This document shows positions 3,792 to 47,013 of a stretch of DNA of 64,000 nucleotides, piece after piece. This stretch comes from an uncultured Opitutia bacterium (GTDB lineage Bacteria > Verrucomicrobiota > Verrucomicrobiia > Opitutales > Opitutaceae). The notes beneath the pieces are model-generated. The model ran no database searches. It had not been told where the DNA came from and saw only the letters and a program-made list of their open reading frames with translations. Location of the stretch: the NCBI GenBank assembly GCA_903825285.1, contig CAIJZY010000014.1, forward strand, positions 248,001-312,000. The letters are read 5' to 3'. The position numbers and the translations under genes were made by a program. The first letter of the stretch is position 1; each line of letters starts with the position of its first letter.

Positions 3792-5231
<1,440 letters not shown>

Positions 5232-5395: not shown

Positions 5396-5929
5396 ATGCC
5401 CGCCATCCAGGAAATCACCGACAAGCTTATCCGGGACAACATCCAGCGTGCCGTGCACGACGTGTTCAAGACCATGCTCGGGCACCAGCCCGACTTCGTG
5501 TCCGCCTCGGTGCAGCTCGCCGGCGTGCATACGCCCGCGATGCCGGCCGCCGCGGAGAACAGCCACCCGAGCGTCGTCGGCACGGTGGGGTTTCTCGGCG
5601 ACGTCAACGGCCTGATCTATCTCTATTTCGACGTCGCCTTCGCCCGCCTGGCCACCAGCCAGCTCCTCAGCATGTCCGACGCGGAGCTCGATGACGCCGG
5701 CGACGAGGTCGTCAATGACGCCATCGGCGAGCTCACCAACATGACCGTCGGCAGCTTCAAGAACGGCCTCTGCGACGCCGGCTATCCCTGCAAGCTCACC
5801 ATCCCGTCGATCCTGCGCGGCAGCAATTTCTGCGTCGAGCCCATCAGCTCCGCCGTCCGCCACACGTTTTACTTCAACTGCGCCGGTCACCGTGTCGTGA
5901 CCGATATCCTTATGAAAATCGGCGATTGA
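5396..5929 (+). CDS. cheX: Chemotaxis protein CheX-like (CheY-P phosphatase family)
   Basis: A 177-residue CheC/CheX/FliY-family protein. The family removes phosphate from CheY-P using Glu and Asn side chains on one helix. Here the helix reads DEVVNDAIGELTNMTVGSFKN, giving the E-x-x-N pattern. The flanking GTVGFLGDVNGLIYLYFD strand and the single active helix fit CheX more than the duplicated CheC. A perfect sigma-28 promoter lies 30 bases upstream. The next gene starts 17 bases after the stop, so the pair is probably co-transcribed and functionally linked to receiver domains. Confidence 0.85.
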   Translation: MPAIQEITDKLIRDNIQRAVHDVFKTMLGHQPDFVSASVQLAGVHTPAMPAAAENSHPSVVGTVGFLGDVNGLIYLYFDVAFARLATSQLLSMSDAELDDAGDEVVNDAIGELTNMTVGSFKNGLCDAGYPCKLTIPSILRGSNFCVEPISSAVRHTFYFNCAGHRVVTDILMKIGD

Positions 5930-5946
5930 GCCGATCCTTACCTCCC

Positions 5947-7104
5947 ATGCGATACAAGCTCCTCACCGTCGACGATTCCAAGACCGTCCGCATCATCGTG
6001 CGGAAGGCCTTCAAGGGCTTTGACTGCGAGATCCTCGAGGCGGGCAACGGCGTCGAGGGCCTTGCCGTGGCCTCGAAGGAAATGCCCGACCTCATCCTGC
6101 TCGACGTCACCATGCCGGTCATGGACGGCGTGGAGATGCTGACCAAGCTCAAGTCCGACCCCGCGCTGAAGGGCATCCCCGTGATGATGCTCACCGCCGA
6201 GGGCGGCCGCGACCACGTGCTCAAGATCGCCAAGATCGGCGTCCGCGACTATCTCGTGAAGCCCTTCAAGGAGGAGGTCCTCATCGAGAAGGCCGGCCGC
6301 ATCATCGACCTCAAGCCGCTCTCCGAGGCCCCGGCCAAGGCCAAGTCCATCTTCGATCCGGCCGACATCCTCATCGTCGAGGACAAGCCCGCGATCATCC
6401 AGCAGATCCAGGAGGGCCTGAAGCACACGCCGTGGAAGGTCCATGGCGTCGCCACCCAGGGCGAGGCGATCGACTTCTGCTCGCGCACGCCGCCCGACCT
6501 CATCCTCGTCAGCCTCTCGCTGCCCGACGAGTCGGCCTTCACCCTGTTCCGCCTCGTGCGGACGAACGTGAAGACGAAGTACACGCCGGTGTTCGCCCTC
6601 GTGGTGAAGACCGAGACGACGCAGCAGCAGCAGGCGCAGACGCTCGGGTTCAACGCGATCGTCACCAAGCCGATCGACCTCGGCGAACTGGAGACGAAGA
6701 TGGCCAAGGCGATGAACCTCGACACCTCCCAGCGCTACTACGCGCTGGAGGGCGACACGCTGGTCATGCGCCTCCCCGAGAACTGCGCCCCCGCGGTGCT
6801 GGCCGAGGCGGCGGACTACATGAAGCCCAAGTTCGCGCAGGCGGTCGACGCCGGCCAGAACAAGGTCGTCATCGACATCCACCAGCTGAAGTCCCTGCAC
6901 ATGGGCGTGATCAAGCTGTTGTTCCAGGCCATGCAGACCTGCCGCGACCTCGCGATGCAGTTCGTGCTCGTCGGCAGCGCGCAGATCATCACCGAGTGCA
7001 AGGGCTTTGAGGACACGCGCGGTTGGACCTTCTTCGAGTCGATCGAGGAGGCGAAGGCCAACCTCAGCAAGAGCCCGGCCCCGCAACTGGCGTCGACGAC
7101 CTGA
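5947..7104 (+). CDS. Receiver / pseudo-receiver / STAS-like three-domain regulator
   Basis: 385 residues in three parts. Receiver 1 (residues 1-122) is complete: Asp9/Asp10, phosphoacceptor Asp53, Thr83 and Lys105 in VKPF. Receiver 2 (about 139-260) starts ILIVED and keeps TKPID, but the acceptor position is Ser189 (LILVSLSLP), so it should not be phosphorylated. The last part (about 268-370) resembles a STAS domain: a strand GDTLVMRLP, then KVVIDIHQLKSLHMGVIKLL and FVLVGSAQIITEC. I know no named protein with this exact order. Linked to the cheX-like gene upstream, it probably joins chemotaxis phosphorelay input to an anti-anti-sigma-like or scaffold output. The ATG at 5947 is the receiver start. 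Confidence 0.8.
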   Translation: MRYKLLTVDDSKTVRIIVRKAFKGFDCEILEAGNGVEGLAVASKEMPDLILLDVTMPVMDGVEMLTKLKSDPALKGIPVMMLTAEGGRDHVLKIAKIGVRDYLVKPFKEEVLIEKAGRIIDLKPLSEAPAKAKSIFDPADILIVEDKPAIIQQIQEGLKHTPWKVHGVATQGEAIDFCSRTPPDLILVSLSLPDESAFTLFRLVRTNVKTKYTPVFALVVKTETTQQQQAQTLGFNAIVTKPIDLGELETKMAKAMNLDTSQRYYALEGDTLVMRLPENCAPAVLAEAADYMKPKFAQAVDAGQNKVVIDIHQLKSLHMGVIKLLFQAMQTCRDLAMQFVLVGSAQIITECKGFEDTRGWTFFESIEEAKANLSKSPAPQLASTT

Positions 7105-7187: not shown

Positions 7188-8195
7188 ATGCGGTTCCCCC
7201 CTGCTGTCCTGAGCCTTGCCCACCTGGGCGGCGGCATGGCGGTTGGACTGGGCCTGGCGATGGCCCTGACCCTGACGGGCTGCCGGCCGGATCCGGCCCC
7301 GGCCGCCGCGAACCCGCCCTTGCGCGTGGGCATCGACCTCTGGGCCGGCTACTATCCCCTCGTCCTCGCGTCCGAGCGGGGCTTGCTCCGCGAGGAAAAC
7401 GTGGCGGTGGACGTGCTGGTGCCGGGCGACACCCACCGCATGATCGCGGATTTTGCCGCGAGCCAGTATGACCTGATCGGCGTCTCGCTGGCCGATGTCG
7501 TGCTCGCCACGCGGGTGAACCCCGACATGCGGATGATCCTGAATTCCGACGAGTCCGCCGGCGCGGACCTGATCCTCGGCCCGCAGCCGCTGCTGATGCC
7601 GGCGCAGCTCCACGGCAAGCGCATCGGCACGACGCTCGGGGGCTTCGGGGAGCTGTTCGTCCGCCATTTTCTCGAGCTGCAGGGGATTCGTCCCGAGGAG
7701 GTGCTCCTCGTGAATACGGATGCGGCCAATGTGCCGGACCTGCTCAAGCGCGGGGCGATCGACGTGGGGCACACCTGGGAGCCGTATGCGGCCCAGGCCC
7801 GGTCGGCGGGATTCCAGGTGTGGTTCACGAGCGCGGAGACGCCCGGCCTGATCGTGGACGGCCTGGTCGCGCGCGGGACCGTGATCCGCGAGCGGGCACC
7901 GGAGCTGCGGGGGCTGGTGCGCGCCTGGTTCCGCGCCGTCGCCTGGTGGAAGGCCCACCCGGCCGAGGGCAACGCCCTCATCGAGCGGCGCCTGCGGCTG
8001 CCCGCCGGCTCGGTCTCGTGGCAGGGCATCCGCCTGCTGGATCAGGCCGACAACCGCCGCGCCTTCGCCCAGCGGCCGCCAGGCGCGCTACGACAGGCCT
8101 GCGCGAGCTACGTCGAGTTCTTCATTGCCCGCGGCACCCTGAGCGAACGCCTGCCGCCCGAGGCGCTGCTGGACGGCTCCTTCGTGGACGAATGA
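7188..8195 (+). CDS. ABC-type substrate-binding lipoprotein (NMT1/SsuA-like), likely sensor partner
   Basis: A 335-residue periplasmic binding protein. Signal sequence with lipobox-like LTLTGC near residue 32, then LRVGIDLWAGYYPLVLASERGLL, the entry motif of NMT1/SsuA/NrtA-type proteins that bind nitrate, sulfonates or pyrimidines. The remaining type-2 binding fold looks complete. No permease or ATPase gene is nearby. The stop overlaps the ATG of a membrane hybrid kinase (ATGA), so it probably delivers ligand information to that kinase rather than to a transporter. A TTG at 7176 preceded by GGAGG (7160-7164) is an alternative start. Confidence 0.85.
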   Translation: MRFPPAVLSLAHLGGGMAVGLGLAMALTLTGCRPDPAPAAANPPLRVGIDLWAGYYPLVLASERGLLREENVAVDVLVPGDTHRMIADFAASQYDLIGVSLADVVLATRVNPDMRMILNSDESAGADLILGPQPLLMPAQLHGKRIGTTLGGFGELFVRHFLELQGIRPEEVLLVNTDAANVPDLLKRGAIDVGHTWEPYAAQARSAGFQVWFTSAETPGLIVDGLVARGTVIRERAPELRGLVRAWFRAVAWWKAHPAEGNALIERRLRLPAGSVSWQGIRLLDQADNRRAFAQRPPGALRQACASYVEFFIARGTLSERLPPEALLDGSFVDE

Positions 8196-11100
8196 AGATC
8201 CGCACCCAGATGACCCTGGCGCTGGCGGCGGTGGCCTTGCTGCCGCTGTGCCTCGCCGGCGTCATCGCCTATCATTTAAGCCACTACCGCCTCGACGCCC
8301 AGGCCGACCGGACGCTGCAGACGTTCAACCGGCGCGTGGCGACCGAGGTGGACGACTTTGCCTTCCGCGCCGTCGAAAGCGTGCGGCTCGCCAGCCGCAT
8401 CCCGGCCATCGCTACCTACCTCGGCTCGCCCTCCGCCGAGGCGGGCTTTATCCGCCAGGCGAAAATCACCGACGTGCTGCTGGCCGCCGTCATTCCCGAC
8501 CCCGTCAACGTCACGTCCTGCGCCCTGTTTGACGTCAAGGGGCGCAAGCTCGTGGACACCGCGCCGCGCCTCGTGGACTTGGACGAGTCGGTCCGCCCCT
8601 GGGTGACCCGGCCGCTGACGGACGGCCTCGCGGTCATCGTGCCAAGCCTCGACCCGGCAACCGGGCCGGCGCTGTGGGTCGCGACCCCGGTGCGCGAGGC
8701 CTCGGGACGGATTCTGGGCGTCCTGCGGCTCCGCTACGAGCTGGCCGTGCTGCAGCAGATCGTCGCGCAGGCCGCCGAGGAGCGGAGCCGCGGCGTCTTT
8801 TCCGTGCTCTTCGACGAACAGGGCCGGGTGCTCGCGCACGGCACGGATCCCGCGTTCGTCGGCACGGCCGCGCTGCCGCTGCCCGCGACTTCCGCCAACG
8901 GCGAGGTCGCCTGGCTCCGCTGGTCGTCCGAGGCCCGGTCCGGCGGGTCACCCGACCGCGTGGCCGTGCGCCAGCTGGGCCGCGTGCCCTGGCGGCTGGC
9001 CGTCGCCGAGACCGGGTCGGTCTTCCACCTGGCGTCCGACGACCTGTTCCGCACCATGCTCGGGCTCGCGGCGCTGTCGATCACCTGCGGCACGCTGGCG
9101 GTGTTCCTCGCCTCATCCCGCCTCAGCCGCCCGATCACGCGCCTCGCGGTCGCGGCCGAGCAGATCGGCCGCGGTGAGCTCGACGTCACGGTCCCCGGGA
9201 CCGGGCAGGGTGAGGTGAGCCGCCTGGCCCGGACCTTCAATGAGATGGCGCGGCGGCTGGCCGGCACGCGGGGCGAGCTGGAGCAGAAGATCGCCGAGGT
9301 GCGCGCCAGCGAGGAGGGCCTGCGCGAGATCCTGGATGCCTCGCCGATCGGCATCCTGATCTATGACGAGCGGCGCGAGGCGCTGCTGATCAACCGGAAG
9401 TTTGTCGAGATGTTCGGCTACGACGACTCCCACATCCACCGCATCGACGAATGGTGGCCGCTGGCCTACCCCGATCCCGCCTACCGGGTCCAGGTGCAGG
9501 CGGAGTGGCGGCAACGGGTCGAGGAGGCGCGCCGCACGGGCCGCGAGCTGCGCCCGATGGAGACCCTCGTGTGCAGCCGCGACGGCACGCGGCGCGAGAT
9601 CGAGTTCCGCTACCGGGAAATCGGCGCCCGGCGCATCACGCTGATGGCCGACGTCACCGAGCGGCGCCGCGCCCAGCAGGCGCTGCAGACGAGCGAGGAG
9701 CGCGGCCGCGTCCTCCTGGAGCATGCGACCGACGCCACGTGCGTGCTCGATGTCGCGGCCGGCCGGTTCGTGGACTGCAACCCGAGCTTCGAGCGCATGT
9801 TCAAGCTCACGCGGGAGGACGTCCTGCGGCGGGGGCCGGCGGAGATCAGCCCGCTGGTCCAGCCCGACGGGCGGGATTCCGCGGACGCGGCGCGGCGGCA
9901 CATGCAGGCGGCGCTGGAGGGCGTAGGCCAGATCTTCGAATGGGCGCACCGCGACAGCACCGGCCGCGAATTTCCCTGCGAGGTGCGGCTGGTGCGGCTG
10001 CCCGACCCCGAGCGCCCGCTGCTGCACGCCGTCGTGATCGATGTCCAGGAGCGTCACCGCGCGATCGAGCAGTTGCGGCGGAGCGAGCAGCGCTTCCTCA
10101 CCGTCTTCAACGCCAGCCCGGTCGGCCTGGCCATCGCCACCGCGGACACGGGCGTGATCCTGGACGCGAACCCCGCTGTCTGCCGCCTCGTGGGCTTCCC
10201 GCGGGAGCAGGTCCTGGGCCGGAAAACCGCGGATTTCGCCACCTGGCTGCCGGGCGAGCGCGAGCGCATCACCGCGGAGGTACTGCGCACCGGTAGATGC
10301 CAGCCGTTCGAGAAGCAGCTGCACACCACGGCGGACCCCGTGACCGTGCTGGTGCACTTCGAGGCCATCGAGGTGGACGGCCAGCGCCGGCTGCTCGTGG
10401 CGCTGAACGACATCACCGACCGCAAGCGCACCGAGCGAACCCTGCGCGAGAGCGAGGAGCGCTTCCGGCTGCTCGTCGAGAACTCCAACGACCTCGTCGT
10501 CCAGGTCTCGCTCGACGGCACCATCCTCTACGCCAGCCCGAACCACGCGGCGATCACCGGCCGCGGCGCCGAGGAGCTGGTCGGCACCAGTGTCTTCGCG
10601 CGGGTCCATCCCGACGACCAGGCAATGGCGGCGGCCCGGTTCCGGGCCGGGGAAGGGCAGGGCCTGTTCCGCTACCAGTACCGGGACGGCTCCTGGCGCT
10701 GGCTGGAGTCCTCCGGCCGCCGGTACCGCCTGCGCAGCGGCGAGGAGCGCGGCGTGATCGTCTCGCGCGACGTCTCCGAGCGCGTGCAGGCGGACGAGAC
10801 GCGCAAGCACCTCGAGGCGCAGCTGCGGCAGGCGCAGAAGATGGAGGCGATCGGGACCCTGGCGGGCGGGATCGCGCACGACTTCAACAACATCCTCACC
10901 GGCCTGCTCGGCCACCTGCAGCTGATCGAGATGGATGTCCCGGCCGACGCCACGGAGCTGCGGCGGAGCCTGACCGAGGCCACGGCCGCCGGCGGGCGGG
11001 CCAAGGACCTGGTGGCCCAGATCCTCGCGTTCAGCCGCCAGCGTGAGCAGAAGCGCAGCGTGCTCTCGCTCACGGCCAATGTCCGCGAGGCCCTTCGTTT

Positions 11101-11983
11101 CCTGCGGGCCTCGCTGCCCGCGACGATCACGATCGAGGACAACCTGGCCGCGGCGGATTGCCAGGTGCTGGCCGACCCCACGCAGATGCACCAGGTGATC
11201 ATGAACCTTGGCGTCAACGCGGGCCATGCGATGCGCGAGCGGGGCGGGGTCCTGACCTTCGCCCTGGTCCAGGCCGATCCGCCGCCGGCCCTCGCCGCGG
11301 CCCAGGCGACGCTCCGGCCGGGGCGCACCCTGCGCCTGACGGTGGCGGACACCGGCAGCGGCATGGACGCGGCCACGCTCGAGCGCATCTTCGACCCGTT
11401 CTTCACCACGAAGCCGGTGGGCGAGGGCACCGGCCTCGGCCTCGCGATCGTGCACGGCATCATCCAGGACCACGGCGCCGCGATCACCGTGGACAGCCAG
11501 GTGGGTGTCGGCACCTCCTTCCAAATCTACTTCCCGATGGTCGAGAGCACGCCGGCGGTCGCGCCGGCCGTGCCGGCCGATGCCCCGCGCGGCCGCGGCC
11601 AGCACATCATGCTCGTGGACGACGAGCTGCTCGTCCTCTCCGTCGCGCAGCCGATGCTGAAACGGCTGGGCTACCGGACCACCGTGTTCGACAAGTCGCG
11701 CGCCGCGCTCGAGGCCTACCAGCAGGCCCCGCACGACTACGACCTGATCATGACCGACCTGACCATGCCGGAAATCACCGGCGTCGAGCTGGTCACTCGG
11801 ATCCGCGCCCTGCGGCCGGTCCAGCCCGTGCTGATCATGACCGGCTACCTGCGGGCCGTGGACCTGGCGTCGGCGCGGGCGAGCGGCGTGACCCAGTTCC
11901 TGACCAAGCCCTTCACGCTGACCTCGATGGCCGAGGCCCTGCAGCAGGCGCTGGGAAAACCCGGCGGCTCCGCGGGCACCTAG
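8192..11983 (+). CDS. Hybrid sensor histidine kinase (Cache-like sensor, HAMP, several PAS, HisKA, HATPase, receiver)
   Basis: 1263 residues. A first membrane segment (MTLALAAVALLPLCLAGVIAY) and a second near residue 300 (LGLAALSITCGTLAVFLA) enclose a Cache-like periplasmic sensor. A HAMP domain follows (SRPITRLAVAAEQIGRGELDV), then about four PAS domains. HisKA carries the phosphoacceptor His896 in GGIAHDFNN, followed by HATPase motifs (VADTGSGMD, GTGLGLAIV) and a C-terminal receiver with Asp1189 (IMTDLTMPE) and TKPF. The start overlaps the upstream binding-lipoprotein stop, so the two form one sensory unit. The downstream phosphotransfer partner is unknown. The DFNN-type H-box class often works with receiver-only outputs. 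Confidence 0.9.
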   Translation: MKIRTQMTLALAAVALLPLCLAGVIAYHLSHYRLDAQADRTLQTFNRRVATEVDDFAFRAVESVRLASRIPAIATYLGSPSAEAGFIRQAKITDVLLAAVIPDPVNVTSCALFDVKGRKLVDTAPRLVDLDESVRPWVTRPLTDGLAVIVPSLDPATGPALWVATPVREASGRILGVLRLRYELAVLQQIVAQAAEERSRGVFSVLFDEQGRVLAHGTDPAFVGTAALPLPATSANGEVAWLRWSSEARSGGSPDRVAVRQLGRVPWRLAVAETGSVFHLASDDLFRTMLGLAALSITCGTLAVFLASSRLSRPITRLAVAAEQIGRGELDVTVPGTGQGEVSRLARTFNEMARRLAGTRGELEQKIAEVRASEEGLREILDASPIGILIYDERREALLINRKFVEMFGYDDSHIHRIDEWWPLAYPDPAYRVQVQAEWRQRVEEARRTGRELRPMETLVCSRDGTRREIEFRYREIGARRITLMADVTERRRAQQALQTSEERGRVLLEHATDATCVLDVAAGRFVDCNPSFERMFKLTREDVLRRGPAEISPLVQPDGRDSADAARRHMQAALEGVGQIFEWAHRDSTGREFPCEVRLVRLPDPERPLLHAVVIDVQERHRAIEQLRRSEQRFLTVFNASPVGLAIATADTGVILDANPAVCRLVGFPREQVLGRKTADFATWLPGERERITAEVLRTGRCQPFEKQLHTTADPVTVLVHFEAIEVDGQRRLLVALNDITDRKRTERTLRESEERFRLLVENSNDLVVQVSLDGTILYASPNHAAITGRGAEELVGTSVFARVHPDDQAMAAARFRAGEGQGLFRYQYRDGSWRWLESSGRRYRLRSGEERGVIVSRDVSERVQADETRKHLEAQLRQAQKMEAIGTLAGGIAHDFNNILTGLLGHLQLIEMDVPADATELRRSLTEATAAGGRAKDLVAQILAFSRQREQKRSVLSLTANVREALRFLRASLPATITIEDNLAAADCQVLADPTQMHQVIMNLGVNAGHAMRERGGVLTFALVQADPPPALAAAQATLRPGRTLRLTVADTGSGMDAATLERIFDPFFTTKPVGEGTGLGLAIVHGIIQDHGAAITVDSQVGVGTSFQIYFPMVESTPAVAPAVPADAPRGRGQHIMLVDDELLVLSVAQPMLKRLGYRTTVFDKSRAALEAYQQAPHDYDLIMTDLTMPEITGVELVTRIRALRPVQPVLIMTGYLRAVDLASARASGVTQFLTKPFTLTSMAEALQQALGKPGGSAGT

Positions 11984-25092: not shown

Positions 25093-25243
25093 GACGCGAA
25101 TAGGGTCTCTGCCTTTGGCGCGGCCTCCCATCCCGGCAAAATTTTCCGCCACCGGCGTCGAGCGGCGGGTGCCAGCAGCGCTTTTCACCGGGCGTGAAAT
25201 CTATTCGACGGGTGATGAATAGGTTGCGGAGGCGGAATGGCAG

Positions 25244-25260
25244 CTGGCACCGCCCTTGCT
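25244..25260 (+). promoter_or_regulatory. Sigma-54 (-24/-12) promoter of the flgB operon
   Basis: CTGGCAC at 25244-25250 and TTGCT at 25256-25260. The GG (25246-25247) and GC (25258-25259) are separated by exactly 10 bases. This is essentially the full RpoN consensus TGGCAC-N5-TTGC. The predicted start at about 25271 is two bases before the flgB ATG at 25273. Confidence 0.88.
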
Positions 25261-31004: not shown

Positions 31005-31453
31005 AGCGCTTTCGCTTTAACCTCCGACCGGTCTCCGTGATCCGGACGCATCATGAGATGCGGGCCCGCGATGCCTTTGCCACTGCCGTCCATCTCTATG
31101 TCGAGGCCGAGGAGCGGCTCGCCCGCGTGCGGGAGCGCAAGGCCGAGTTCGAGGCCGCGCTCTTCGCCGGCCGCCGCGACCGGTTCCACGCCGCCGCCGA
31201 GGCGCAGACGCTCGCCGCCTACCGCCGCGAGTGCCTCGAGGAGATCGAAACCGAGCGCGGCGTGATCGCCGCGCGCGCACTGATGATCGAGCGCCGCGCC
31301 GAGTACGTCGAGGCGCACCGTCGCCTGGAGGTGGTGAACCGCCTCGAGGCCAAGGCCCGCGCCTCCCACCGCCAGGCCGCCAACCGCGAAGAGCAGGCCG
31401 AGTTCGATGAATTCGCCGGCCGCGCCGCGCACCGGAAACTTGCCGCCGTATGA
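31001..31453 (+). CDS. fliJ: Flagellar export chaperone/stalk protein FliJ
   Basis: A 150-residue coiled-coil protein with strongly charged, helix-forming sequence starting MKRFRFNLRPVSVIRTHHEM. FliJ inserts into the FliI hexamer and links it to FlhA. The start overlaps the fliI stop and the stop overlaps the next start, indicating translational coupling. The family is divergent, and identity comes from the KRFRF..L..V start, coiled coil and position. Confidence 0.88.
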   Translation: MKRFRFNLRPVSVIRTHHEMRARDAFATAVHLYVEAEERLARVRERKAEFEAALFAGRRDRFHAAAEAQTLAAYRRECLEEIETERGVIAARALMIERRAEYVEAHRRLEVVNRLEAKARASHRQAANREEQAEFDEFAGRAAHRKLAAV

Positions 31454-32067
31454 TCACGAAACTGCAGAACCCGCTCACGGCCATGGCCGTGAGCCTCGTG
31501 CTCAGCGTGGTGCTGGGCGCCGCCCTGTGCTGGCGCGCCGCCGCGCCCCTGCTGGAACTCGCCGCGGCCGCCCGGCCGAAGCCCGCCGCCGCGGGCAAGG
31601 ACAAGGGCTGGGATTTTTGGACGATTGAGATCGAGAACATCTCCACCGACCTTCGCGAGGAACGGGCCCGCCTCCACAAGCAGGCCGACCTGCAGGACCA
31701 GCGCGCCGCCCGCCTGGCCGCCGAGGAAAAGGAACTGGGCAAAATCCGCACCGACATCGAGGGCCTCCGCACGGAGATCGCCGACAAGGTCATTGAAATC
31801 ACCGCCGACGAGGCGAAAAACCTCCGGACGCTGTCCCAGACCTACACCAACCTGTCGCCCCGCGCCGCCGTCGCGATCCTGCGGGAAATGGACGACGTCA
31901 CCGTCGTCAAGATCCTCTCGCTGATGAAGCCCGACGTGGTCGGGCCCATCTTCGAGGAAATGAGCCACACCGCCAGCACCGATGGCCCGCTGGCCCGCCG
32001 CGCCGCCATCCTCTCCGAAAAACTGCGGCTGATGAAGGCGAACAAGCCCGCCAGCCCCAGCAGCTAA
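31450..32067 (+). CDS. motE: MotE-like periplasmic flagellar protein
   Basis: 205 residues: one N-terminal membrane helix (AMAVSLVLSVVLGAALCW), a long coiled coil (DLREERARLHKQADLQDQRAARL...), and a C-terminal MgtE-N-like helical domain (LSPRAAVAILREMDDVTVVKILSLMKPDVVGPIFEEM). This is the layout of MotE, which in other bacteria assists stator protein MotC/MotB function, and of similar genes next to fliJ. The gene symbol is by architecture and position. It is translationally coupled to fliJ. Confidence 0.78.
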   Translation: MITKLQNPLTAMAVSLVLSVVLGAALCWRAAAPLLELAAAARPKPAAAGKDKGWDFWTIEIENISTDLREERARLHKQADLQDQRAARLAAEEKELGKIRTDIEGLRTEIADKVIEITADEAKNLRTLSQTYTNLSPRAAVAILREMDDVTVVKILSLMKPDVVGPIFEEMSHTASTDGPLARRAAILSEKLRLMKANKPASPSS

Positions 32068-32127
32068 CCCGGAATTCCCCGCGTCCAAGGATGGATGCGG
32101 TTGCTCGCCACGGAGGGTGTCATCGCC

Positions 32128-33705
32128 ATGCAACTCTCCGCCTCCGTCCTTCCACTCGATCCCTCGCTCCCCACGTTGCCCGCCGCGGGCCTCACCGGCC
32201 CCGCCATCCCGGGCATCACCGGAAGACTGCCGGCAATCTTCGCCGATCTCCTGCCGGGCCAGCCGGCTCCGGCCGCGACTGGCGGAACGCAGAAAAATCC
32301 CGCGACGCCAGATTCCGCGACCCTTGAGGCTGCCGCCGCGCAGCTCGTGGGCTGGTTGTTCACCACGCCGGTCCCGGTCCAGCCGGTCGACATTTCCCTG
32401 AGTGCTGACCCGACTGCGGCCTCAGTCCCGACCGCGGCCCCGACTGCGAGCGCGGCCCCGGCTGCGAATGCTGCCGAGGGGATCGCGACGCTGGGAGAGA
32501 GTGGAGGAAGTGCGCCGGCCGCCGGTTTCTGGTCCGCCCCGGTGAATCCTGGTCAGGCGGGACCGATGCCGTTCCCGCAAACGGCGGCGTCCACCCCGAA
32601 AAGTCAGGCCGAATCCGGCGCGCAGCAGCCCCTCACGCCCCAGCCGCCCCAGCCACCCCAGCCGGCCCAGCCGCCCCTGACGCCTCCGCCACCTCTGATG
32701 CCTCTGTCGACACTCATGCCGCTCGCAGCCGCGCCCGCACCGCTGTCCAAGGCAGCGCTGCCGACTCAGGCGGAGAGAGTACCCGTGCCGTCGCCGACCG
32801 CGCCCGCTGGGCATGCGATCGAGCCGGCAACGGCCACTCCCGCGGCGCCGACCGTCGAGTTGGCGGTCGTGGCGTCCGTCGATTCGCAGCCGTCCGGAAC
32901 GACGCCACTCCGCCGGGCAGCCATGGACGAGCGCGGGGACGTGGCAGTCTCCGTGATCCAGGGGGAAAATATTGCCCCTGCGGCCGAGAAATTTGTGCCA
33001 CGGGAAAATTCCATCGTTTTGGCCGGGGATAAAAAAATTCTAAGCACTACGGACAAGCAGGTTACAGGACGGCCCGGCAGCCTTGGCATCGGCATTGCTA
33101 TGCCTGCGACCACCATGTCCATGACCGCCTCCCACCCGACGAATTCCACGGCGGCCCTGCCGCCGGCGGGAGCATTGGGGGCGAGCGCGGAGCGGACCGC
33201 GACGTCGGCGCAGGTGATCCTGCCCGAAACCACCGTGGCCAGCCAGGCGCAGCGCGCGGTTGAGGCGGTCACGACGGCTGCGGAACGGGCCAGCACGGCC
33301 GGCCGCACGTCCGTGCAGATCCAGTTTTCCCTGAGCGGCGCGGACCTGTCGGTGCGCGTCGAGCTCCGCGGCGACGCCGTGCATGCGACCTTCCAGACGG
33401 ATTCGAGCGAGCTGCGCACCGCGCTGGCCGCCGAGTGGCAGACCGCGAGCGCCGGTGCGGCGGGCGGGATGCGCCTGACCGAGGCCGTGTTCACGCCGGC
33501 CGCCCCGGCCGGCAATGCGGGCACGTCATTGTCCGGCGAGGGCGCCCCGCAGCAGCGTGAGAACCAAAGCCGCGAGGCCGCGGAAGTTTTCGACCACACC
33601 AGCCTGCGTCCGCTCGCCTCGGGCCGCCGCCGCACCGCGGCCGCCGTCTCCGACTCCCGGCCCTGGTCCGCCCGTTCCAACCTGAATCTCTACACCTTCG
33701 CCTAA
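32128..33705 (+). CDS. fliK: Flagellar hook-length control protein FliK
   Basis: 525 residues. The first 380 residues are low-complexity, rich in Ala, Pro and Thr, including a proline stretch around residues 170-210 ([19 protein letters not shown]). The C-terminal domain around [42 protein letters not shown] is the recognisable FliK core that triggers the export specificity switch. The ATG at 32128 is preferred since GGAGG lies 11 bases upstream (32112-32116). An in-frame ATG at 32095 is the alternative. It lies between motE and flgD, as expected. Confidence 0.85.
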
Positions 33706-39360: not shown

Positions 39361-39382
39361 GGCAATAATTGCCGCCATTTTT
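39361..39382 (+). terminator. Weak terminator-like hairpin after fliR
   Basis: GGCAA-TAA-TTGCC at 39361-39373, then GCCA and TTTTT (39378-39382). The stem is only 5 bp. It falls between fliR and the flhB promoter, where an operon end is expected. Confidence 0.4.
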
Positions 39383-39415: not shown

Positions 39416-39439
39416 ACCGGAAGGAATAGAAAAGTTTAA
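39416..39439 (+). promoter_or_regulatory. Shared upstream element, probable activator site for flhB
   Basis: ACCGGA (39416-39421), five bases, TAGAAAAGTTTAA (39427-39439). The same arrangement occurs at 46934-46957. In both places the element ends 42 bases before the -24 GG, placing it about 65-90 bases upstream of transcription start, a usual location for NtrC-family binding sites. The likely ligand is the regulator encoded at 3792. Confidence 0.6.
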
Positions 39440-39478
39440 AGCATTGGTGGCAAGGGCTTAGCGGTGACTGAAAAGGCA

Positions 39479-39495
39479 TTGGCATCTGCATTGCT
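39479..39495 (+). promoter_or_regulatory. Sigma-54 (-24/-12) promoter of the flhB operon
   Basis: TTGGCAT starting at 39479, and TTGCT at 39491-39495. The GG (39481-39482) and GC (39493-39494) are 10 bases apart. The start near 39506 is five bases before the flhB ATG. A weaker second candidate, TGGCAAGGGCTTAGC with GG at 39449-39450, also has correct spacing and would give a 37-base leader. Confidence 0.78.
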
Positions 39496-44096: not shown

Positions 44097-44891
44097 ATGA
44101 ATACCGCAACCGCCCCCGTCCCTGGCATGGAAGCTACGCCCGCCGCCGCCTGGCGCGCGTATCAGGGAGTCTCCCCCAGCGCTGTCGATGAAAAGGATTT
44201 GATCGAGCGCTATCTGCCCCTCGTCCGCAATGTGGTCGATCGGATCAAGCTCAACGTGCCCGCGCACGTGGACGCCGACGATCTCTACAGCGTGGGCATC
44301 ACCGGGCTCATCGCCGCCGTGCGCAAGTTCGACCCCGAACAAGGCAGCACGTTCGCCAGCTACGCCGCCATGCGCATCCGCGGCGCGATCCTCGACGAGC
44401 TTCGTCGCATGGATTGGTGCCCGCGCCGGGCCCGCGCCCGCGCGCGCAAGCTCAAGACGGCCATCAACGACGTCGAGCAGAAGCTCGGCCGCGCCGCGAC
44501 CGACGACGAGGTTCGTTCCTCGCTCGGGCTCGAACCCAAGGAGTACGCCAAGTGGGTCGAGGAGGCCAAACCGGTCACCTTCATTAACATCGACCAGGAG
44601 TCCGAGGCCGAGGAAGGCAAGGGCGGGACGCTCCACGAGCTCCTGGCGGACGAAAACGACGTCACGGGCCGCGACAACCTTGAAAAGGAGGAGTTCGTGC
44701 AACTTCTCACTCAACGGATCGCGGAACTGCCCGATATACCTAAGAAAATCATTGCCATGTACTACTACGAGAACCTCCGGTTGGCCGAAATCGCCGCCGT
44801 CTTCGGCCTGACGGAGTCTCGCATCTGCCAAATTCACGCCCAGACCATCCTCGGCCTGCGGGCGTACCTCCAGCGGGTGCGCGACCGCTAA
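44097..44891 (+). CDS. fliA: Flagellar sigma factor FliA (sigma-28)
   Basis: 264 residues. Region 2 is clear: LIERYLPLVRNVVDRIKLNVPAHVDADDLYSVGITGLIAAVRKFDPEQGSTFASYAAMRIRGAILDELRRMDW (in consecutive blocks), followed by region 3 and region 4 with YYYENLRLAEIAAVFGLTESRICQIHAQ. This matches FliA/WhiG sigma factors, which recognise TAAA-N15-GCCGATAA. About a dozen such sites are seen in the window. Being inside a sigma-54 operon places it in the class-II level of the cascade. Confidence 0.96.
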   Translation: MNTATAPVPGMEATPAAAWRAYQGVSPSAVDEKDLIERYLPLVRNVVDRIKLNVPAHVDADDLYSVGITGLIAAVRKFDPEQGSTFASYAAMRIRGAILDELRRMDWCPRRARARARKLKTAINDVEQKLGRAATDDEVRSSLGLEPKEYAKWVEEAKPVTFINIDQESEAEEGKGGTLHELLADENDVTGRDNLEKEEFVQLLTQRIAELPDIPKKIIAMYYYENLRLAEIAAVFGLTESRICQIHAQTILGLRAYLQRVRDR

Positions 44892-46855: not shown

Positions 46856-46933
46856 GGTGCCGGAAGGGTGGCGGTGTGGGCAATTCCTGCCGCCTGGTCC
46901 GATCCAAAGCCGGGAAGGTGGGGTAATATTTTC

Positions 46934-46957
46934 ACCGGACCGTTTAGAAAAGTTTAA
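46934..46957 (+). promoter_or_regulatory. Shared upstream element, probable activator site for flgF
   Basis: ACCGGA (46934-46939), five bases, TAGAAAAGTTTAA (46945-46957). This is the partner of 39416-39439. GTTTA occurs twice here, 10 bases apart (46942-46946 and 46952-46956), giving a one-turn direct repeat. Confidence 0.6.
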
Positions 46958-46996
46958 TATAATCTAGGACATGTAGTTATGTGACAGGTGGGGAGT

Positions 46997-47013
46997 TCGG
47001 CACGCGGTTGGCT
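46997..47013 (+). promoter_or_regulatory. Sigma-54 (-24/-12) promoter of the flgF operon
   Basis: TCGGCACG with GG at 46999-47000, and TGGCT with GC at 47011-47012, 10 bases apart. It has one mismatch in each box to TGGCAC-N5-TTGC. The predicted start near 47024 is four bases before the flgF ATG at 47028. An unrelated TATAAT (46958-46963) is also present and could be a vegetative -10 without a convincing -35. Confidence 0.7.

Follow-up and report, generated by a model that had tools for sequence, protein, structure and literature searches.

The 13-base sequence TAGAAAAGTTTAA, which precedes both flhB and flgF in this uncultured Opitutaceae bacterium, a member of a little-studied family, is a real and conserved regulatory element of a familiar kind in a new setting. 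It probably forms the left arm of a roughly 35-bp target for an IHF-like protein, lying between an FlbD-type enhancer and a sigma-54 promoter, where a bend would enable the activator to contact the promoter. The features concerned are given below for the window, by which we mean the whole 64,000-nucleotide stretch of DNA that was analysed. Positions with a minus sign count from the first G of the -24 GG, which was set as zero.

3792..5231, +, NtrC-family activator with a receiver, an AAA+ domain with GAFTGA and a Fis-type HTH; proposed binder of the palindrome
25135..25147, +, candidate enhancer palindrome GGCAAAATTTTCC of the flgB promoter, centre -105, one mismatch
25194..25229, +, diverged IHF-like site of flgB, -52 to -17
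25244..25260, +, sigma-54 promoter of flgB, CTGGCACCGCCCTTGCT
32964..32976, +, candidate enhancer palindrome GGAAAATATTGCC of the intragenic promoter, centre -115
33033..33068, +, weaker IHF-like match at the intragenic promoter
33083..33099, +, sigma-54 promoter TTGGCATCGGCATTGCT inside the ORF at 32095-33705, with GG at 33085 and an ATG at 33115
39361..39373, +, candidate FlbD-type enhancer palindrome GGCAATAATTGCC of the flhB promoter, centre -114
39416..39421, +, ACCGGA at flhB, first block of the element as first annotated, not conserved
39427..39439, +, TAGAAAAGTTTAA at flhB, the 13-base block, putative left arm of the bend site (-54 to -42)
39429..39464, +, whole IHF-like site of flhB, -52 to -17, centre -32 (39449)
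39437..39446, +, core of the flhB IHF-like site, TAAAGCATTG
39479..39495, +, sigma-54 promoter of flhB, TTGGCATCTGCATTGCT
44097..44891, +, FliA/WhiG-family sigma factor, above curated cut-offs
46879..46891, +, candidate enhancer palindrome GGCAATTCCTGCC of the flgF promoter, centre -114
46922..46934, +, weak second palindrome GGTAATATTTTCA at flgF, near -71, abutting ACCGGA (46934-46939)
46945..46957, +, the 13-base block at flgF
46947..46982, +, whole IHF-like site of flgF, -52 to -17
46997..47013, +, sigma-54 promoter of flgF, TCGGCACGCGGTTGGCT

Sigma-54 promoters in the window and in relatives

The first-pass annotation had taken the promoters of flhB, flgF and flgB to be of the sigma-54 type, and this is borne out by GG-N10-GC sites near the gene starts. 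In the relatives, a GG-N10-GC site in the context TTGGCAC-N5-TTGC lies near the start in 57 of the 70 flhB upstream regions, in all 28 for flgF and in 21 of 29 for flgB; it is absent from the other 13 flhB and 8 flgB regions. An FlhB match was found in 83 of 150 genomes of the family, and 70 of these 83 supplied the flhB upstream regions. The set is without G144, G089, G019, G110, G057, G012, G063 and G102, and without G109, G069, G070, G134 and G079, in which the FlhB match is split, partial or distant. The flgF set holds 28 of 30 regions, leaving out G129 (gene broken over contigs) and G087 (a partial match to another rod protein), and the flgB set holds 29 of 30, leaving out the truncated G084. 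A row was retained if a site scoring 7.8 or more for sigma-54 lay no farther than 50 bp from the start, which gave 57 + 28 + 21 = 106 promoters.

Some particulars of these promoters may be recorded here. The flgF promoter of the window (46997-47013) carries the variant -24/-12 form CGGCACG..TTGGC, and a G precedes the -12 GC in 10 of the 28 flgF promoters. The flhB genes with no nearby sigma-54 site are those of G036, G042, G013, G010, G083, G056, G029, G033, G120, G127, G078, G048 and G008; 12 of these 13 FlhB-positive genomes keep the activator ortholog, and in G083, where the site is missing near flhB, the switch precedes flgB (L224). Beyond the window the genome has six strict sigma-54 matches. 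Five of them (L050, L054-L057) were scored, the sixth (C61:5563) being left out, and with bend scores from -39.7 to -4.9 and palindromes at 2-4 mismatches they lack the architecture described here. Two other identities for the block were rejected by eye. The core AAAGTTTAA recalls the -35 of a sigma-28 (FliA) promoter, but the -10 of the sigma-28 consensus, which is GCCGATAA-like, is missing at both flhB and flgF. The CtrA consensus is TTAA-N7-TTAA, and only half of it is matched in the two copies.

Position and conservation of the element

The first annotation described ACCGGA-N5-TAGAAAAGTTTAA as a single element standing 42 bases from the -24 GG. Exact copies (0 mismatches each) are found at 39416-39439 and 46934-46957, upstream of FlhB (39511) and FlgF (47028), and the gap to the GG pairs at 39481-39482 and 46999-47000 is the same at the two promoters, although its length is 41 bases. 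The shared TTTTCACCGG noted before flgB, the gene of the third promoter, is present at 25182-25191. At up to three mismatches the element has these two matches only in the window (0 in 100 shuffles), and a search of both strands of the whole genome (3.74 Mb, 96% complete) returned the same two copies and no further occurrence.

As one unit the element held up in part. When the promoters of relatives are aligned on the -24 GG, TAGAAAAGTTTAA is seen to be one version of a conserved motif, and the conserved columns among the 106 promoters (A-rich at -51 to -48, TTTAA at -46 to -42, YTG at -37 to -35, AR at -28/-27, then -22 to -18 and the promoter itself) support the 13-base block as a real regulatory site, fixed in position and common to flhB and flgF. 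The ACCGGA part, in contrast, is found exactly at -65 to -60 in one of 57 flhB and one of 28 flgF promoters, each time that of this genome. At flgF it adjoins the weak second palindrome near -71, and a similar site is present in 9 of the 28 flgF promoters; the pairing of ACCGGA with the block is best taken as chance. The exact 13-base string occurs in none of the 17 loci of FlhB relatives, all 17 of which are titled as Verrucomicrobia, Opitutae/Opitutia, Opitutaceae, Opitutus or Didemnitutus MAGs. The two copies are thus identical because each lies close to a consensus, and their identity as such is not conserved. Before the promoters were aligned on the -24 GG, the missing 13-mer had resembled non-conservation.

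The candidate enhancer palindrome

The pattern GGCAA-N3-TTGCC, with at most one mismatch, is present in 45 of 57 flhB, 28 of 28 flgF and 17 of 21 flgB upstream regions, compared with 0.6, 0.4 and 0.2, respectively, in shuffled sequence. The best palindrome, at up to two mismatches in 105 promoters, is centred at -117 to -112 in 57 and at -106 to -103 in 29, the remaining centres being -97 in 4, -83 to -79 in 7, -70 in 1 and -60 to -58 in 7. Across the genome the palindrome alone, with one mismatch, gives 81 matches per strand against 82 in a reversed control, and a longer form gives 79/87 against 123/120. Genome-wide, the palindrome alone is no commoner than its control and carries no information, and specificity belongs to the palindrome taken together with the promoter. 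As one pattern the two are found in 46 of 150 genomes (0 for the reversed control). Flagellar context was checked at 28 loci from a larger number of matches to this combined pattern; all 28 carry a flagellar gene, with a FliA-like sigma factor at L219. The palindrome and a sigma-54 promoter also occur in the fliA/motA region of some relatives: L219 (G064), L234 (G034) and L245 (G004).

The probable IHF-like bend site

Since TAGAAAAGTTTAA spans -54 to -42, it makes up the left arm only of a pseudo-palindrome that extends over about 35 bp around a centre at -32 and is located between the enhancer and the sigma-54 promoter. Mirror symmetry about -32 is seen in the pooled promoters and in each of the three genes separately, and the pooled value was equalled in 0 of 2000 column permutations. 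When the site is set against the IHF consensus WATCARNNNNTTR, the core YAANNNNYTG is conserved at -44 to -35, and the match to the full consensus is partial. With up to two mismatches, the reverse consensus YAANNNNTTGATW begins at -44 in 29 of the 106 rows and the forward consensus lies at the mirror place, -32, in 13, over a background of about 0.6 rows per average offset. About 9 bp lie between the conserved steps at T (-36) and A (-28), which is also the spacing of the two proline kinks in IHF-family complexes. Because it holds the IHF core together with its mirror image, the candidate site is most likely the target of an IHF-like bending protein. Another regulator with a long symmetric site would suit the partial consensus match, but the core, the mirror core and their placement agree with IHF at sigma-54 promoters, and we consider such a regulator unlikely.

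The site can be recognised from other genomes and from other genes. A bend-site model whose training set leaves out this genome and retains the same-genus relatives G015 and G124 gives the two top places among the window's 127,846 positions to the sites of flhB and flgF, with flgB in sixth place and the intragenic site in thirteenth, and a model of bend site plus promoter gives the four window promoters scores of 42-59, the next site scoring -0.9. Training on flhB only places flgF at rank 2, flgB at 17 and the intragenic site at 36; training on flgF only places flhB at rank 2, flgB at 7 and the intragenic site at 4; and training on flgB only places flgF at rank 1, flhB at 4 and the intragenic site at only 169.

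Geometry of candidate enhancer, bend site and promoter

Of the 97 promoters with an enhancer beyond -75, 90 have the highest-scoring bend site at the standard place and 94 have it within 1 bp of that place. Where the enhancer is nearer, the whole motif lies 12 bp closer to the sigma-54 site in 7 of 8 promoters, all of them of flgF. The same 12-bp shift is seen at flgF of G039, which has its enhancer at -79, and at flhB, six promoters whose enhancer is at -82/-83 keep the bend site at its standard place. The shift does not simply follow enhancer distance. A helical period is not clearly marked among the enhancer positions themselves (R 0.67 at 10.5 and 0.64 at 9.5). A displacement of roughly one helical turn is easily accounted for if the module is a bending joint. 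An UP-like contact for the C-terminal domain of the RNA polymerase alpha subunit, or intrinsic curvature of the DNA that needs no protein of its own, would account for the A/T-richness of the element and its constant distance from the promoter. Such an explanation is quite improbable, as it fits poorly with the mirror symmetry, with the sharply conserved T-36, A-28 and T-22 far from the A-run, and with the displacement of the near-enhancer motifs as a unit.

The activator and the IHF-like protein

The regulator at 3792 is very probably a flagellar activator, as the first annotation had it, judging from its co-occurrence with FlhB across genomes. An ortholog scoring at least 528 bits is present in 67 of 70 FlhB-positive genomes (it was not found in G138, G143 and G036, which are 70-83% complete), and in ten of ten genomes with no FlhB match the score is at most 374 bits. 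The split between activator and FlhB is imperfect, since G030, one of these ten, has flgF with a promoter of the type described here and no activator ortholog was found in it. The activator scores 408.3 bits against the FlbD model, below the cut-off of 750, and this is its second-best model after AtoC. Its receiver looks complete (D11, D54, T82, K104), and its recognition helix is conserved in 30 aligned sequences, the window's own being included twice. Downstream of it are a response-regulator protein (5926-7104) and a large PAS/hybrid histidine kinase (7820-11983), which might feed its receiver.

The first annotation assigned the element itself to this activator. The fixed place before two flagellar sigma-54 promoters and the co-occurrence of the activator with flagellar genes are consistent with that assignment. 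However, each of the four window promoters has, further upstream, a separate palindrome of the FlbD class, which agrees with the motif published for activators of this kind, CCCGGCAxxxxxTGCCGGG for FlbD (PMC3333781); the FlbD-type enhancer (ftr) pattern GGCA-N5-TGCC is thus found before the flagellar sigma-54 promoters. The element, on the other hand, is close to the promoter, A/T-rich and part of a 35-bp symmetric pattern that is IHF-like in form and place. By its match to the FlbD motif, GGCAA-N3-TTGCC is a better candidate than the element for the activator's binding site, and we find it very unlikely that the element serves this purpose. We propose that the palindrome is bound by its cognate activator on two grounds, namely co-occurrence and the conserved recognition helix. 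The suggestion that flgB may be activated differently also fares poorly, its promoter having the same palindrome and, in diverged form, the bend site as well. A chance repeat, to which the mere two exact copies in the genome and the probably fortuitous ACCGGA might point, can be dismissed for the 13-base part. The whole element gave no match in the shuffles, and the 13-base part is met again in other genera at an unchanged position and is recovered by the held-out-genome model and by training across genes.

The genome has one rpoN match (411.9 bits, cut-off 277.35) and two genes of the HU/IHF family (PF00216), one HU-like and one nearer to IHF. The latter scores 65.6 bits for IHF-beta and 63.5 for IHF-alpha, against cut-offs of 115 and 111, and 37.1 (HU-alpha) and 33.5 bits for the HU models; as its IHF scores exceed its HU scores and fall below the curated cut-offs, we call it IHF-like only. 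The 20 HU/IHF genes from relatives, sorted by eye, comprise 16 IHF-like, 3 HU-like and 1 misread. The closed genomes G113, G004, G020 and G013 have an IHF-like gene only, G013 being one in which the sigma-54 site is missing at flhB. A lone IHF-like subunit would be expected to pair with itself, and such a homodimer would suit a site with mirror symmetry. The rpoN gene (G000:C6:16712-18133) and the IHF-like gene (C6:20462-20731) are about 2.3 kb apart.

An intragenic promoter in the fliK region

The fourth promoter of the window lies within a fliK-like ORF (32095-33705) that sits directly upstream of flgD. It was compared over ten sites, that of the window and those in 9 of the 17 relatives' loci. 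An in-frame ATG follows exactly 30 bp after the GG in all ten, and the palindrome is best at -115 in nine, that of L016 being at -118 with two mismatches. The reading frame upstream is open for 876-1983 bases in nine and runs off the contig end in one. The bend-like site is weak here, scoring 12.9 in the window and from 12.5 down to -6.0 in the relatives. The promoter was not found in L015 and L017, where about 9-10 kb upstream of flhB is covered, and the other six of the 17 loci have too little upstream DNA to show it. It may serve flgD or a short FliK product. The ORF that precedes the fliK-like ORF (31450-32067) shows weak similarity (41.7 bits, cut-off 110) to FlbB, a flagellar collar protein of the periplasmic type.

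Proposed mechanism

Computation shows the conserved elements with their geometry and symmetry, the flagellar setting of the combined pattern at every locus examined, and genes for sigma-54 (rpoN), for the activator and for an IHF-like protein. In the mechanism that we propose, the activator encoded from 3792 would bind the GGCAA-N3-TTGCC enhancer and an IHF-like protein would bend the DNA at the fixed site between enhancer and promoter. The bend would fold the enhancer-bound activator back onto sigma-54 RNA polymerase, after which the activator's ATPase would open the promoter. We infer the pairing of each protein with its site, the bending of the DNA and the dependence of transcription on the bend, and the design may be common to flhB, flgF, flgB and the intragenic promoter in the fliK region. 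More speculatively, the Opitutaceae may rely on one homodimeric IHF-like protein that recognises a symmetric stretch of about 35 bp, which would be a dedicated joint, rigidly placed, in flagellar sigma-54 promoters, and the switch inside fliK may yield a short C-terminal FliK product. If this tentative extension is true, a homodimer site in the Opitutaceae replaces the asymmetric heterodimer site of Proteobacteria, and the short product would be made together with the hook genes. The enhancer, bend site and promoter constitute a testable promoter grammar for the entire family.

Comparison with known systems

In the open-licence literature that was searched, little was found on how Verrucomicrobiota control their flagellar genes, and for sigma-54 flagellar promoters or IHF in this phylum nothing on the architecture described here. 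A 2025 survey reports that sigma-54 regulates motility in Opitutia (PMC12316311), and the accessible text of that survey does not mention IHF, integration host factor or "upstream activ". FlrC and FleQ belong to the same AAA+ class of sigma-54 activators and are both among the solved relatives of the activator described here; the palindrome found here, by its match to the published motif, is of the FlbD kind.

RpoN-dependent promoters often have IHF between themselves and their enhancers (PMC7962754, PMC3897727). At the orp promoters of Desulfovibrio vulgaris, an IHF site likewise lies between the activator site and the sigma-54 promoter, and a functional IHF site there may match the E. coli consensus poorly; these promoters, unlike ours, are non-flagellar, use heterodimeric IHF and, as described, show no rigid family-wide spacing (PMC3897727). 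The FlbD homologue DVU1063 of the same species is associated with GGCAxxxxTGCC before flagellar genes, a printed spacer one base shorter than the one found here, and its receiver is atypical; the accessible text on DVU1063 does not mention IHF (PMC3333781).

A close parallel is provided by the class III/IV promoters of Caulobacter crescentus, with FlbD at ftr sites, where late flagellar genes require sigma-54 polymerase, IHF and FlbD (PMC3096577). The two systems have in common a sigma-54 promoter, IHF and an NtrC-family flagellar activator, and the Caulobacter FlbD enhancer has the same GGCA-N5-TGCC as ours, although the receiver of FlbD is atypical and that of our activator looks complete (PMC3333781). 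An enhancer, an IHF bend and a sigma-54 promoter are thus a known architecture, that of Caulobacter FlbD/IHF. What is new here is the phylum, Verrucomicrobiota, the rigid spacing and the apparent symmetry of the IHF-like site, which suggests that FlbD/IHF/sigma-54 logic reaches far beyond Proteobacteria and that a single IHF-like protein may replace the heterodimer.
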